Positions 2,828-6,339 of a DNA stretch of 8,530 nt are shown piece by piece. Under the pieces are notes generated by a model. That model had not been told where the DNA came from. It did not search any database and saw only the letters and a list, made by a program, of their open reading frames with translations. The first letter of the stretch is position 1. Each line of letters opens with the position of its first letter. Position numbers and translations under genes: made by a program. The DNA is from Parcubacteria group bacterium (GTDB lineage Bacteria > Patescibacteriota > Minisyncoccia > Minisyncoccales > UBA10102): the NCBI GenBank assembly GCA_016188735.1, contig JACPHF010000057.1:1-8530 (forward strand). Reading direction: 5' to 3'.

Positions 2828-3274
2828 CTATTGCTCAATTTGATCAATCTTCTTGATGCGGCGCTCGTGTCTTCCGCCTTCAAAATCCGTTTCCAGCCAT
2901 AGGGTGATGGCGTCAATCGCTTCTTCCTGAGTGATAAATCTTGCCCCAAGACACAGCACATTCGCATCGTTATGCTGACGGGATAACCGCACGATGTCCA
3001 GAGAACCTCCGTAGTATACGGCCGCCCTGATGCCTTTAATCTTGTTTGACGCAATCGCTTCCCCCTGACCTGTCCCTGCAACGGTAATCCCTCTGCTGTC
3101 TTTCTCTGCAGCGACTTTCCGCGCGAGCGGGATGACAAAATCCGGATAATCATCACCCGAATCAAAAGAGGCGGGGCCAAAATCCTGCACGGGAAAACCG
3201 CGTCCTGCCAAATACCGCTTGATTTCTTCTTTCAAGGCAAAGCCCGCATGATCGCCGGCAAGGTATATGTTCAT
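2828..3274 (-). CDS. rpiB: Ribose-5-phosphate isomerase B
   Basis: 148 residues, the normal length for RpiB, a cytoplasmic enzyme interconverting ribose-5-P and ribulose-5-P. Signatures: AGDHAGFALKEEI (6-18), DYPDF (42-46), GTGQGEAIASNKIKGIRAA (67-85), SRQHNDANVLCLGAR (98-112) with the ring-opening His101, and GGRHERRI (133-140) with phosphate-binding Arg/His residues. The catalytic Cys of the E. coli type (just before GTG) is Ala66. The loop instead has Glu72 in the GxGxGE pattern known from the Mycobacterium tuberculosis enzyme, where that Glu is the general base, so activity is expected to be retained. The ATG start overlaps the stop of the DUF6580 membrane protein gene (ATGA), tying this pentose phosphate set to the upstream genes. 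An LacAB-like or sugar-specific isomerase is possible but less likely given rpe and transketolase next door. Confidence 0.93.
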   Translation of the reverse strand: MNIYLAGDHAGFALKEEIKRYLAGRGFPVQDFGPASFDSGDDYPDFVIPLARKVAAEKDSRGITVAGTGQGEAIASNKIKGIRAAVYYGGSLDIVRLSRQHNDANVLCLGARFITQEEAIDAITLWLETDFEGGRHERRIKKIDQIEQ

Positions 3275-3813
3275 GTCCTCAAAGATATGCTTCGTTTCCT
3301 TGCGATGATGTTACCGATGAAAACCGCAGCCTCATATCCTCCAAAAAATACCGCGGCATAGAATACGTCTCCCAGCAAAGTCATTTTGAAGAATGGGAGC
3401 GCCAGGGTATACGAGAGAAGAAGACCCTGAAGATTATGGGGATACCAAGGGGAAAAAATCCAAACGGCGGCGTTGGTGACAAGGTAGAACACCAGAGATC
3501 CCGTAACGGCTGCCAGGAATATTTTCTCAGGCCGTTTCTGCTTTCCCACGATCATGCCCAATATTCCGTAAACCAGAAAGCTCGCATACACCACGGCCAT
3601 GAGCTTCCAGTCATACAGGCCAATGAACAGATCTGAAACCGCCATGGCTCCAAGAGGCAGAAGCAGCAGCCATCTGCTTTTCTGCGCAAGGTATGCGCCC
3701 GCAAACAACGCAAAAGCGCCCATGGGGGTAAAATTGGGAGCATGAGAAAGAAGACGTCCTCCTATGGAAAACAAAAGGGCCGCTGCGATGAAAAGAACGA
3801 GGAATGTCTTCAT
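3271..3813 (-). CDS. DUF6580-like integral membrane protein, putative (B12?) transporter
   Basis: 180 residues, very hydrophobic, with about five or six membrane segments (roughly 3-20, 32-45, 48-66, 71-90, 99-120, 131-166) and a basic tail (ARKRS, 171-175). The conserved pattern HAPNFTPMGAFALFAGAY (24-41), followed by PLGAMAVSDLFIGLYDW (53-69) and LLGDVFYAAVFF (146-157), is what I recall for the DUF6580 'putative transport protein' family, whose function is not established. Its size and polytopic form resemble substrate-binding S components of ECF transporters, but no ECF ATPase or T component is visible nearby. It lies 12 bases after the anchored toroid protein in a cluster headed by a candidate B12 riboswitch, so import of a corrinoid is a reasonable inference. 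It overlaps rpiB by 4 bases. No clear ribosome binding site precedes the ATG. Confidence 0.72.
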   Translation of the reverse strand: MKTFLVLFIAAALLFSIGGRLLSHAPNFTPMGAFALFAGAYLAQKSRWLLLLPLGAMAVSDLFIGLYDWKLMAVVYASFLVYGILGMIVGKQKRPEKIFLAAVTGSLVFYLVTNAAVWIFSPWYPHNLQGLLLSYTLALPFFKMTLLGDVFYAAVFFGGYEAAVFIGNIIARKRSISLRT

Positions 3814-3825
3814 TCAGATAGTATA

Positions 3826-4596
3826 CTACTTTTGGATCAGTTTCCAAATCAGGGTGAGGGCCGAAACAATCGGCTGCACGATCGCGGTATACGCGAGAGA
3901 CGCAACGAGATTTTTTGGCTTTGCGACAGATTCCTGCTGAAGGGTTCTCGTCTCTATGGAGTTTTTCAGCTCTGCGACCTCGCTTCTCAGTTGAGTAATC
4001 TGGGTTGAGAGACGTTCGTATTCCTCCCCTCGGGGGTACTCGGGACTTTCAGCTGTTGCGGCTTTTGGTGCTATTAGCTCTTCTTCTGCCTGCTTTATAG
4101 CTTCTCCTGCCGTTGCTTTTTCAACAACGGCTGGAATATCAAAACTCGTGAGAACATCGCCCCACGATTTGCCCAATGCGGCGGGTATCGCGTACGCCGT
4201 AGCCCATATTCGATTTTCCACGGTTTCATCGTCTGCTCCCACGCTTCCGTCTTCTCTCTGAAAACCTGAAAGAACACCAAGAGGGGTTTTCTCTTCCTTT
4301 GCCCAATCCTGCGGAACTTCCTTCAGCGCTGATATTGCCTGGAGAACCCAAGCTGCGGTATATGCGTTTTCAAATCCTCCGCCCTGCTCCTGCCTGAGTT
4401 TGAGGTATTGTTTTGCCCTGCCGATCGCTCCATTTACATCATCTCTTCCCCCCTGAAACAAGGAAAGTGTCTGTATTGCGGCCGCGGTCATATCTTCGCT
4501 TCCTGCGAACGAACCGTCGCTTTCCTGCCTGGTGAGAATAAAAGAGAGATCTTTTACTATTCTTGCGTCGGCACGGAATCCCGCCTTGAAAAGCAC
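3826..4596 (-). CDS. Toroid-repeat surface protein fragment with coiled coil and C-terminal membrane anchor
   Basis: About 256 residues from a GTG at 4596 that overlaps the upstream TAG (TAGTG). Residues 1-142 carry alpha-toroid repeats of the prenyltransferase/terpenoid-cyclase type, as in transcobalamin and intrinsic factor: LTRQESDGSFAGSEDMTAAA (21-40), KLRQEQGGGFENAYTAAWVL (66-85) and SGFQREDGSVGADDETVENR (110-129). A linker (150-190) leads to a likely coiled coil with heptad-like spacing (190-222), then one hydrophobic segment (229-253) ending in WKLIQK, which should anchor the protein with the toroid outside. It has no signal peptide, so it could not be exported unless fused to the preceding reading frame. 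The natural product is probably one long protein: signal, DUF4430, beta domain, toroid, coiled coil, anchor. The residues read in this frame just before the GTG (LALL) also fit the family, so the GTG may not be a genuine start. Prenyltransferase catalysis is not expected. Confidence 0.75.
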   Translation of the reverse strand: MLFKAGFRADARIVKDLSFILTRQESDGSFAGSEDMTAAAIQTLSLFQGGRDDVNGAIGRAKQYLKLRQEQGGGFENAYTAAWVLQAISALKEVPQDWAKEEKTPLGVLSGFQREDGSVGADDETVENRIWATAYAIPAALGKSWGDVLTSFDIPAVVEKATAGEAIKQAEEELIAPKAATAESPEYPRGEEYERLSTQITQLRSEVAELKNSIETRTLQQESVAKPKNLVASLAYTAIVQPIVSALTLIWKLIQK

Positions 4597-4612
4597 TAGA
4601 AGCGCGAGCCGT
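4590..4612 (-). other. Probable frame disruption joining two halves of a toroid gene
   Basis: The upstream frame ends ILDGSRF-stop and the downstream frame opens LALLVLFKAGF. In intact toroid proteins of this kind the equivalent region runs from a DGxxF turn, through about a dozen residues usually containing a Asn-Asp-Asp-Ile/Phe stretch, into FALLALLKAGF. Both edges of that pattern are present, in two different frames, and the middle is missing. The simplest reading is a short deletion whose length is not a multiple of three. It could be a real mutation, strain variation or an assembly error. The TAGTG arrangement would allow some translational restart, but the second product would lack a signal peptide. 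Confidence 0.6.
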
Positions 4613-5684
4613 CAAGGATCTCCTTGATATAGTCGACTGATGTGCCGTTGCCAGGATTAATGCCAAGCGACATGAGCGCCATGCTTCGCCGTTCAGCATC
4701 CGTGAGCAGTGTTCCGGGGCTGGGAGCCAAAAGAAGATACTGCTTCAGTTTTTCCCTGATGGCCGTCCCCTCCTGTTGCGCTCCCAGGGCAACCGCGGCC
4801 CAGTCGGAAAACAAGGGAGCTCCGAAGGAACCGTCTGTTTTCTGCTGCGACTCAAGGAACCGCACGGCTTTTTGAACATCAAATTGGGCGACAATACTCT
4901 GGAAGGGCGCGCTTTGCGCGGGAATGGGGGCTGAGTGGAATCCTCCGCTTGTATTCGGAGTTCCGACCGAAAGCTGTGTCGTGGGGAAATAGAAATCCTC
5001 CTTGACGCCGACGAGATATTCTCCGGGAGAAGCAAGCTGGAATGTCGCCGATCCTTGCTCGTCAACGGGAGACGTGAGCACCTCTATCGGAGAAAAGGGA
5101 TCTGAAGGATTTTCCCGGGTCACTCCCGCGGTCACTCCGATACGGGACGCCCACGTGTTGCTGACGTATTGGTACGACTCGGCCTGAACCGAAAATTCCT
5201 CGCCCGTATTCACTCCTTGTGAACTCAATCGCACCCGATAATTGTCTCCGAAGAATATCCACACGGTATCTCCCGCTAAAACCGTCTGCTGGTCCATGCC
5301 GACGGAAGGAATATTGCCGTTCACCGCATACTGCCAGTTATCGCAAAACTCCCGAGAAACAGCGGTAACGGTAATGCATTTCACATAGAAAGAGCCGAAA
5401 GAAGAAAAGTACTGCAGGTTGGATATGTGGAATGCTTCCGAGGGTTCATCCAGTGAAACAAGGAGGGCCAGGACGCTTTGATTTGACGCAGTGTGATCTG
5501 TTCCGTCTGAGTCGGTAATCGTTACGGATCCTGTAAGCGGGATCTCTACCGTTGCGTTTTGAACCGCAAGCGTATCTTGGCTGCGAATGGAAAAAGACAC
5601 GGTCGCGGCCTGAACCGAATGCGCAACGCCAAGACCGAAAACCAGCGCACAAACAGATAACAGAAATTTAAATTTCATCCTCAT
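4596..5684 (-). CDS. Secreted DUF4430 / beta-domain / toroid protein, transcobalamin-like (C-terminus broken)
   Basis: About 362 residues from the ATG at 5684; an ATG at 5678 and a TTG at 5696 are alternatives. A Sec signal peptide (KFKFLLSVCALVFGLGVAHS then VQA) should be cut near residue 26. Residues 27-146 resemble DUF4430, the fold of the transcobalamin C-terminal domain, ending in DNWQYAVNGNIPSVGMD (115-131) and GDTVWIFFG (138-146); Cys103 and Cys114 may form a disulfide. Residues 147-240 look like a beta-sandwich module, with DEQGSATFQLASPGEYLVGV at 208-227. From about 268 an alpha-toroid begins (AVRFLESQQKTDGSFG, 273-288; RRSMALMSLGINPG, 332-345). The protein stops at DGSRF, inside a toroid repeat that the next gene appears to continue in another frame. 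The domain set matches corrinoid-binding proteins, with toroid and DUF4430-like lobes clamping the ligand, but B12 binding is inferred. The start overlaps the upstream gene by 17 bases. Confidence 0.8.
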   Translation of the reverse strand: MRMKFKFLLSVCALVFGLGVAHSVQAATVSFSIRSQDTLAVQNATVEIPLTGSVTITDSDGTDHTASNQSVLALLVSLDEPSEAFHISNLQYFSSFGSFYVKCITVTAVSREFCDNWQYAVNGNIPSVGMDQQTVLAGDTVWIFFGDNYRVRLSSQGVNTGEEFSVQAESYQYVSNTWASRIGVTAGVTRENPSDPFSPIEVLTSPVDEQGSATFQLASPGEYLVGVKEDFYFPTTQLSVGTPNTSGGFHSAPIPAQSAPFQSIVAQFDVQKAVRFLESQQKTDGSFGAPLFSDWAAVALGAQQEGTAIREKLKQYLLLAPSPGTLLTDAERRSMALMSLGINPGNGTSVDYIKEILDGSRF

Positions 5685-6090
5685 ATTTCCATTCAATGAT
5701 ATCCTGATTATTTACGAAAACGCTGGAGATCCCCGCCTTCGCCTTTTGACCGTTGACGTAATAGATCCAGAAGCGGCGTCCCTTGAGATCTTCCTGCTTC
5801 CCGTTGATCCCCTCCACGAAATACCCTAGGCCTGGGAATTCCCTGCCGGAAAACTCCATGATTTGATTTGCCCGGGCCTGCTTCATGACGTCGTATACGC
5901 TGCTTCCGGGAATAACCTGCAGCTCGTACGACGCTCCCTCCACAACGAGCCTGACTGCAATTGTCTTTTGATCTTCAATCCTCCCCAAAGAATCCAGAAC
6001 GTTTGGGGCGGCGACATCCTGCTGTCGCAGAGAAAACCCGGCGAGAACCGCAACTGCGCCAAGAAGAACAATGAATGTGATTCGTTTCAT
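5668..6090 (-). CDS. Small secreted or membrane-anchored DUF4430 protein (transcobalamin-C-terminal-like)
   Basis: 140 residues. The N-terminus KRITFIVLLGAVAVLAGFSL (2-21) is a signal peptide or signal anchor, without an obvious lipobox Cys. Residues 42-138 match DUF4430: a first strand pair TIAVRLVVEGASYELQVIPG (43-62), SSVYDVMKQA (63-72), LGYFVEGINGKQED (88-101), then FWIYYVNGQKAKAGISSVFV (107-126) and NQDIIEWKYE (128-137). This is the fold of the C-terminal lobe of transcobalamin and intrinsic factor, and such small proteins are found on Gram-positive and CPR-like cell surfaces. As first gene after the candidate B12 riboswitch it is probably a corrinoid-binding surface protein; this is inference. 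The ATG at 6090 was chosen because the frame upstream of it lies in the riboswitch and terminator and has no protein-like content. AGGAG lies 19 bases upstream, too far for an ordinary ribosome binding site. Confidence 0.85.
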   Translation of the reverse strand: MKRITFIVLLGAVAVLAGFSLRQQDVAAPNVLDSLGRIEDQKTIAVRLVVEGASYELQVIPGSSVYDVMKQARANQIMEFSGREFPGLGYFVEGINGKQEDLKGRRFWIYYVNGQKAKAGISSVFVNNQDIIEWKYEDEI

Positions 6091-6102
6091 AGATTCGATA
6101 AA

Positions 6103-6128
6103 TAAAAAACTCCTGAACGGAATAGGAG
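6103..6128 (-). terminator. Candidate riboswitch expression platform: short hairpin plus six Ts
   Basis: On the minus strand CTCCT (6128-6124) and AGGAG (6114-6110) form a 5-base-pair stem with a 9-base loop, followed at once by TTTTTT (6109-6104). This lies between the riboswitch core and the first gene of the cluster, where a transcription-terminating expression platform is expected. The stem is short, so it may be only the lower half of a switch, and the same AGGAG could instead be a distant or sequestered ribosome binding site. No unambiguous antiterminator was identified. Confidence 0.5.
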
Positions 6129-6157
6129 CGAAGGCGGCCCTGGCACAACGCAAGGAC

Positions 6158-6306
6158 GCAACTACGCTCATATCCCCACCCTCGTGGGCCAATGAACATA
6201 TCTCGCTATGGACAGCCATTCAATCGACCGGGCTGATTACCGTTCCGGGGGAGCGGAGGTTGCATACCTCACTTCCTTTGAATGGCTGCGTGCAATGTGC
6301 TGCCTC
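6158..6306 (-). promoter_or_regulatory. Candidate cobalamin (B12) riboswitch
   Basis: On the minus strand an 11-base-pair stem, CAGCCATTCAA (6288-6278) with TTGAATGGCTG (6223-6213), encloses a core that fits the cobalamin riboswitch. In order: AGGAAG (6277-6272), like the conserved GGGAA; a P4-like hairpin GAGGT/ACCTC (6270-6266 and 6260-6256); then GCTC-CCCCG-GAAC (6254-6242), matching P5 with the CCCCG loop; and GGTAATC (6241-6235), like GGTAAxC. Compared with the usual GCTG...CAAC, the last P5 pair is C-G rather than G-C, so pairing is kept. A partial B12-box-like stretch CACGAGGGTGGGGATATGAG (6186-6167) offers GGGG (6177-6174) to kiss the C-rich L5. GCGACTAC (6321-6314) and GTAGTTGC (6165-6158) could close an outer helix with one G-U pair. 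It sits before DUF4430 genes, as known B12 switches often do. The core match is strong; the 3' side is weak. Confidence 0.72.
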
Positions 6307-6310
6307 TCTC

Positions 6311-6339
6311 TTTGTAGTCGCTGCCTCGTCTCTCGTCAA
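6311..6339 (-). promoter_or_regulatory. Candidate sigma-70-type promoter for the DUF4430 operon
   Basis: TTGACG (6339-6334) resembles a -35 box and TACAAA (6316-6311) a -10 box, separated by exactly 17 bases. Transcription would begin near 6304, just upstream of the riboswitch core. If so, the possible outer-helix strand at 6321-6314 would not be in the RNA, so that helix and this promoter are alternatives. Confidence 0.45.

Follow-up and report, generated by a model that had tools for sequence, protein, structure and literature searches.

A cobalamin-type riboswitch heads a predicted corrinoid capture-and-import operon of DUF4430 and DUF6580 proteins in Patescibacteria

The stretch of DNA considered here (8,530 nucleotides (nt), the whole of which is called the window) comes from contig JACPHF010000057.1 of a Parcubacteria group bacterium (assembly GCA_016188735.1). 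On its minus strand, the interval between a flavin adenine dinucleotide (FAD)-linked oxidase gene (end 6391) and a DUF4430 gene (start 6090) forms a leader with a riboswitch, followed by genes for DUF4430 proteins and a DUF6580 membrane protein. A first reading made from the letters alone (the sequence-only reading) had proposed that this locus encodes a B12-controlled system for the capture and import of corrinoids in a host resembling the candidate phyla radiation. The host is indeed a member of the Patescibacteria, with Candidatus Wildermuthbacteria and other Parcubacteria as the nearest named relatives found, and a search of viral contigs returned no match. The comparisons below cover 60 genomes of the same order, among them the window's own genome (G000, 80% complete); 25 of these, G000 counted, carry DUF4430 genes. 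The 24 DUF4430 loci of the remaining genomes yielded 20 leaders for comparison, and a covariance model, R1, was built from the leaders of eight relatives, with the window excluded. We also used 80 DUF6580 loci from named contigs that had been picked by similarity and belong mostly to Patescibacteria; some of these contigs appear to be shared with the genome set. The features of the locus are:

6311..6339, minus strand: promoter-like TTGACG-17-TACAAA, 49 nt upstream of the R1 match
6213..6288, minus strand: cobalamin-type aptamer core (P3, P4, P5/L5, P6), from R1 homology, fold and covariation
6288-6278 with 6223-6213, minus strand: P3, the enclosing stem of 11 base pairs
6270-6256, minus strand: P4
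6252-6244, minus strand: P5/L5
6242-6229, minus strand: P6 and the GGTAATC segment
6166..6197, minus strand: P13/L13 hairpin with loop CGAGGG, -15.3 kcal/mol
6188-6175, minus strand: L13 hairpin CCCACGAGGGTGGG
6104..6129, minus strand: terminator-like hairpin GCUCCU-9-AGGAGU with U tract, -5.8 kcal/mol
5668..6090, minus strand: DUF4430 protein of 140 residues with N-terminal membrane or hydrophobic segment (PF14478, E 9.4e-16)
4596..5681, minus strand: DUF4430 part and toroid start of a large exported protein, shortened (PF14478, E 2e-5; residues 1-362 of the relative P0121)
3826..4596, minus strand: rest of the alpha/alpha toroid in another frame, with C-terminal hydrophobic segment (P0121 residues 379-630)
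3271..3813, minus strand: DUF6580 membrane protein of 180 residues, S-component-like, predicted corrinoid importer

All the RNA elements named in the sequence-only reading (an AGGAAG motif, P4, P5, GGTAATC and the stem of 11 base pairs) could be located on the minus strand of the leader. The core of 76 nt has a folding energy of -28.9 kcal/mol (z -3.05), a value equalled by 1 of 200 dinucleotide shuffles; at its base, P4 has a single U x C mismatch. That reading had named the lack of an Rfam cobalamin match above threshold among the outcomes that would speak against it, and the Rfam covariance models gave no match at gathering score anywhere in the window; under relaxed settings RF00174 aligned to 6271-6228 of the minus strand with 10.2 bits (E 2.1; cut-off 31.5). 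Because this result was weak on its own, Rfam was dropped as sole judge and the test was moved to the leaders of relatives. R1, applied unfiltered to the window, matched 6290-6212 of the minus strand with 51.2 bits (E 6.8e-15) and all four helices formed, the second-best among the 13 matches listed in the window reaching 9.6 bits. The window has the P3-P6 core with conserved junctions, homologous to accepted members of the cobalamin clan (CL00101), and itself falls short of the Rfam gathering score, which is an operational and not a structural criterion.

Among the 20 orthologous leaders, 13 match the cobalamin clan on the gene strand at E <= 0.0013, seven of them above the gathering score, and R1 locates the aptamer in two more (L057 and L074), so that a cobalamin-type aptamer is carried by 15 of 20. 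The leaders L059, L064 and L073 have none, and none was seen in L060 and L072, both of which end at contig edges. It is because orthologous leaders pass the gathering score (7/20), and not through its own Rfam score, that the window is filed as a cobalamin riboswitch; leaders shaped like that of the window (L061, L066, L067) match AdoCbl-II best. As a separate observation, L059, L073 and L064 keep a promoter-like sequence before DUF4430, and L059 and L073 also a terminator-like U tract, with the aptamer absent between. Across the 60 genomes R1 found matches in 18, eight of these being training sources, and in 17 of the 18 the best match lies before a DUF4430 or toroid gene; many genomes of the same family share the gene order oxidase, leader, DUF4430, DUF4430-toroid, rpiB, rpe and transketolase. 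The exception, G001 of the same genus, retains a copy of 36.8 bits behind the oxidase gene and has no match to DUF4430, DUF6580, NrdJ or adenosyltransferase. Three other genes lie downstream of this retained copy (L223, on G001:C7, 1193-6346): one without a Pfam match, one for an AAA/ClpB-like ATPase and one for a TraG/TrwB-like protein.

When 33 R1 matches were aligned, 93.7% of the cells paired and 14 of the 17 model pairs varied on both sides. The covariation score of this alignment, which is fitted to the structure, was 0.672, where shuffles gave 0.187 and slid structures no more than 0.130; an eight-sequence MAFFT alignment gave 0.584 against 0.206, and the count of further pair types in it was reached in 69 of 500 shuffles. 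The cobalamin-type riboswitch of the window is secure by homology. One could still suppose that the window RNA is a decayed aptamer that neither binds nor switches: its Rfam score and the P4 mismatch point that way, as do the several relatives that lost the aptamer and the copy kept in G001 without DUF4430 or DUF6580. With the R1 score and four formed helices, the full 11-base-pair P3, the conserved letters of L5 and J6/3, and an intact set of P13, terminator and antiterminator, we consider such decay very improbable, the least credible of the alternatives weighed here.

The expression platform recurs across relatives. A promoter-like pair, TTGA(C/A)..T(A/G)nnA(A/T), stands within 110 nt upstream of the aptamer in 21 of 33 leaders, some flanks being shorter, and at 50-52 nt in eight same-family leaders besides that of the window. 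Loops of the type CG(A/C)G occupy the position equivalent to L13 in most relatives. In known cobalamin riboswitches L5 and L13 form a kissing interaction; the CGAGGG hairpin stands at the place expected for the partner of L5, and by analogy the two loops may kiss in the window RNA as well. The U-tract hairpin (6129-6104) ends 14 nt ahead of the DUF4430 start codon. An antiterminator can form between the 5' arm of this hairpin (6129-6119) and the 3' strand of P13 (6176-6166), with 10 of 11 positions paired. Terminators 20-160 nt after the core occur in 26 of 33 leaders, against a mean of 2.3 (maximum 4) in 30 rounds of shuffling. In the 23 leaders that remain when those without a found terminator or L13 are dropped, cognate antiterminator duplexes average -12.0 kcal/mol, as compared with -10.7 kcal/mol for swapped partners (p 0.003), the values for the window being -15.1 and -11.5 kcal/mol. 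Taken alone against plain shuffles, the window antiterminator does not reach significance, with 1385 of the 2000 doing as well. A generic scan listed neither the proposed promoter (0 promoter-like sites) nor the proposed terminator; its rules exclude a last position without T and loops above 8.

Compared with the known cobalamin riboswitches (RF00174, RF01482, RF01689), the window RNA shares the P3-P6 core, the conserved J3/4, L5 and J6/3, the L13-type hairpin and the terminator-type platform, and its orthologous leaders pass gathering scores. It differs in scoring far under the Rfam cut-off, in having no P6 insertion, and in preceding DUF4430 and DUF6580 genes rather than btuB, cob or btuCDF.

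Both DUF4430 proteins of the sequence-only reading are borne out by the PF14478 matches. What it took for a separate alpha-toroid protein is encoded by the latter half of a disrupted DUF4430-toroid gene: the open reading frames (ORFs) 5681-4596 and 4596-3826 correspond to two parts of the single 630-residue protein P0121 of relatives (84.5% and 87.4% identity). At the break (window 4560-4660, contig C8 of G000) the TAG stop of the first ORF overlaps the GTG start of the second (TAGTG), the frame changes at 4608, and P0121 residues 363-378 have no counterpart; we conclude that the toroid gene was interrupted by mutation or misassembly in this contig.

That reading had further equated DUF4430 and the toroid with the two lobes of transcobalamin, and here the first half was supported, the second as far as the toroid fold goes. 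A DUF4430 profile of 23 relatives found Transcobalamin-1 (haptocorrin, 4kki; E 2.5e-5) first among PDB entries and intrinsic factor at E 5e-4, with matches in the beta-domain and ahead of all other entries; phmmer searches of the PDB with single DUF4430 proteins gave chance matches only. The toroid lies nearer to squalene-hopene cyclase, the best PDB match of its profile (1.8e-10), with transcobalamin at just 0.45. Among 19 full-length relatives PF13243 (SQHop_cyclase_C) was matched by 18, PF14478 by 14, PF07678 (TED_complement) by 13 and PF01122 (Cobalamin_bind) by eight (best 7e-7). Because the cyclase and TED models match more often and transcobalamin scores 0.45, these matches support the toroid fold but not a particular ligand, and a transcobalamin specificity of the toroid part was dropped as a candidate. 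The vertebrate transcobalamin, haptocorrin and intrinsic factor likewise join a DUF4430-type beta-domain and an alpha/alpha toroid in one protein. In transcobalamin the alpha domain comes first, in agreement with the positions of the profile matches here; P0121 has the reverse order, with DUF4430 at 78-143 and the toroid at about 267-514 (the window order is alike), and the operon has an extra free-standing DUF4430 protein.

The structural model of the DUF6580 protein shows a predicted six-helix fold like that of the S-components of energy-coupling factor (ECF) transporters, with BtuM (8c7p, 8ovv) as the best structural match. BtuM was not among the best 50 Foldseek matches listed, where the best PDB E-value was 0.48, and emerged in a second look with VIA-align. 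A DUF6580 profile matched chain A of 6FNP, which from length and alignment is probably the CbrT subunit, at E 0.0031 over residues 7-90 only; phmmer with a single DUF6580 protein gave chance matches only in the PDB. BtuM of Thiobacillus denitrificans has an invariant cobalt-ligating cysteine and occurs in genomes without an ECF module (PMC6072759). DUF6580 resembles it in modelled fold and in genomes where no ECF module was found, and differs in lacking this residue (Cys80, loop L3): no cysteine at all is conserved across 71 members, 43 of which, and the window protein too, are free of cysteine; H24 in loop 1 is invariant among the 71. DUF6580 was for this reason rejected as a BtuM proper. Most genomes of the same family carry DUF6580 away from the riboswitch operon, and a riboswitch of its own there was likewise rejected: none was found in 20 DUF6580 loci scanned (E <= 0.05; L102-L106 not among them). 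Side observations on these loci include DUF6580 on Bacteroidales-labelled contigs without the B12 neighbours sought (L194, L200, L202, L210, L211, L213), reflecting misbinning or transfer, and group I introns (RF00028, ~60 bits) among tRNA genes near two of them (L088, 968-1200; L091, 1891-2102).

The gene neighbourhoods tie DUF6580 to the use of B12. Fifteen of the 60 genomes have an uninterrupted same-strand run of nrdJ, a gene for cobalamin adenosyltransferase and DUF6580, and another four have nrdJ next to DUF6580; in G000 nrdJ and the adenosyltransferase gene adjoin each other on another contig, with DUF6580 in the riboswitch operon instead. Same-strand neighbours at the 80 DUF6580 loci are nrdJ (>100 bits) at 26, DUF4430 or toroid at 49 and an R1 riboswitch at 20; within the flanks covered, 61 loci have at least one such neighbour and 19 none. 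All ten reductases checked, out of the 26, pass the NrdJ_Z cut-off. Both DUF4430 and DUF6580 are present in 24 of the 60 genomes, just one of them in six (one and five) and neither in 30. In 12 picked genomes a class I/II ribonucleotide reductase barrel or a B12-binding domain is present in 8 of 10 with DUF6580 and in 0 of 2 without, G036 and G039 being the DUF6580 genomes with neither. Outside the same family NrdJ is patchy, being absent from 6 of 29 DUF6580 genomes; of the six, four encode a protein with a B12-binding domain, and the other two are again G036 and G039. In the NrdJ-less G042 and G056, DUF6580 lies ~0.1 and 1.5 kb, respectively, from a B12-binding-domain gene (G042:C2:107349-108268; G056:C16:214445-216735). 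As a side observation, several nrdJ ORFs of ~1190-1300 residues (on G002:C1, G003:C23, G013:C4, G009:C18, G010:C7 and L158 24-3587) have a split reductase match, which suggests intein insertions.

These neighbourhoods bear on the idea that B12 concerns regulation alone, with the DUF4430 and toroid proteins serving surface binding or adhesion for another ligand and DUF6580 carrying another nutrient. In its favour, DUF4430 and alpha/alpha toroids are known in other contexts, the best PDB matches of the toroid are terpene cyclases, and DUF6580 often stands apart from the riboswitch. Yet the vertebrate B12 carriers haptocorrin and intrinsic factor head the matches of the profile for the small DUF4430 protein, DUF6580 adjoins nrdJ and adenosyltransferase genes or a B12-binding-domain gene, and both of its matches, BtuM and 6FNP, are B12-specific transporters. 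We judge this idea improbable, and a corrinoid role of the operon's proteins, as predicted from homology and gene context, well supported.

How the import is energized is a separate matter. ECF-T (PF02361) was found in 0 of 29 DUF6580 genomes, G000 included (EcfA was not searched for); it was found in 2 of the 60 genomes, both without DUF6580, and the same search was positive in 10 of 14 control genomes. Completeness reaches 90% or more, with contamination of 5% or less, in 22 of the 29. In the loci that were mapped, none of the genes next to DUF6580 could be identified as T or A. G000 yielded no BtuC-type permease (no search for TonB receptors was made). Weak, partial FecCD matches occur in 11 of the 60 genomes, G000 not among them; the best has 37.4 bits, exceeding the cut-off by 5, and four of these 11 genomes carry DUF6580.

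In Lactobacillus delbrueckii CbrT is encoded in the cluster nrdJ-cbrS-cbrT-pduO, PDB 6FNP is ECF-CbrT, its B12 transport requires the ECF module, and solitary CbrT did not support growth of E. coli (PMC5997447). Here, too, a protein predicted to be a B12 S-component is encoded next to nrdJ and a gene for a cobalamin adenosyltransferase; the present system differs in that no ECF-T was found in the DUF6580-bearing genomes, and in the DUF4430 and toroid partners under a B12 riboswitch. Because solitary CbrT failed, a module-free mode is not a given, and corrinoid uptake might proceed with DUF6580 as an ordinary ECF S-component whose energizing module is unrecognised or lies in missing sequence. 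The S-component fold, the profile match to the module-dependent 6FNP, the incompleteness of G000 and the restriction of the module search to ECF-T would allow for this; the distribution of ECF-T and the lack of T or A genes beside DUF6580 argue against it. We hold it unlikely, though the most serious of the alternatives, and take it as likely that the S-component-like importer functions without an ECF module.

Another parallel comes from lactic acid bacteria, with a published annotation of an 'Additional lipoprotein component of putative cobalamin ECF transporter' and with a DUF4430 gene next to rtpR in Lacticaseibacillus rhamnosus (PMC9963975). In that annotation, too, DUF4430-type or lipoprotein genes are tied to B12 transport and a B12-dependent reductase; the available part of that source offers annotation only, and describes no riboswitch, toroid or solitary importer. 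The operon's importer and carriers fall outside BtuM because the cysteine is absent, outside ECF-CbrT because no module was found, and outside transcobalamin because the domain order is reversed; by analogy, the operon may work like BtuM or CbrT supplied by transcobalamin-like carriers.

We therefore favour, with a probability of roughly 0.8, a B12-repressed corrinoid capture-and-import operon of Patescibacteria, led by a riboswitch, with DUF4430 carriers and a DUF6580 importer that is likely module-free. This upholds the capture and import proposed by the sequence-only reading, on the grounds of riboswitch homology, the DUF4430 profile, the predicted fold and profile of DUF6580, and the nrdJ neighbourhoods. 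Without ligand, the 3' strand of P13 would pair with the 5' arm of the terminator, and transcription would continue. With cobalamin bound, L13 would kiss L5, P13 would be held and the terminator would form, so that the operon would be off when B12 is plentiful, the ligand presumably favouring the terminator. The exported DUF4430 and DUF4430-toroid proteins would hold corrinoid at the cell surface, much as transcobalamin does with its two lobes, and deliver it to DUF6580, which may act without an ECF module as BtuM does. Elsewhere in the genome an adenosyltransferase gene follows nrdJ; its product would retain the corrinoid by turning it into adenosylcobalamin, which would then serve the class II ribonucleotide reductase NrdJ in making DNA building blocks. 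The module-free mode and this order of events are what we infer from the parts.

Several observations weigh against this reading. Besides the window's low Rfam score, the five leaders without a recognised aptamer, the insignificance of the window antiterminator on its own, the gap in the toroid gene and the preference of its profile for cyclases, they comprise the Foldseek E-value of DUF6580, its lack of the BtuM cysteine, its usual place outside the operon without a riboswitch of its own, the two DUF6580 genomes with neither a class I/II reductase barrel nor a B12-binding domain, and the failure of solitary CbrT. Shared ancestry, moreover, inflates all the linkage and co-occurrence counts given here.

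Patescibacteria are thought to live by scavenging, and a literature search found no description of B12 uptake by them. The present reading assigns to DUF4430 and DUF6580, both families of unknown function, a common role open to experiment, and suggests that the B12-carrier domain of humans has a bacterial relative working alongside a small importer. The R1 model detects riboswitches in these genomes that Rfam misses. A bolder proposal, for and against which the case seems to us evenly balanced, is that DUF6580 constitutes a widespread class of module-free cobalamin importers, with transcobalamin counterparts under a B12 riboswitch and H24 ligating cobalt in place of the BtuM cysteine, feeding NrdJ in cells dependent on scavenged B12. 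The system offers a way to ask whether S-component folds can transport without an ATPase.
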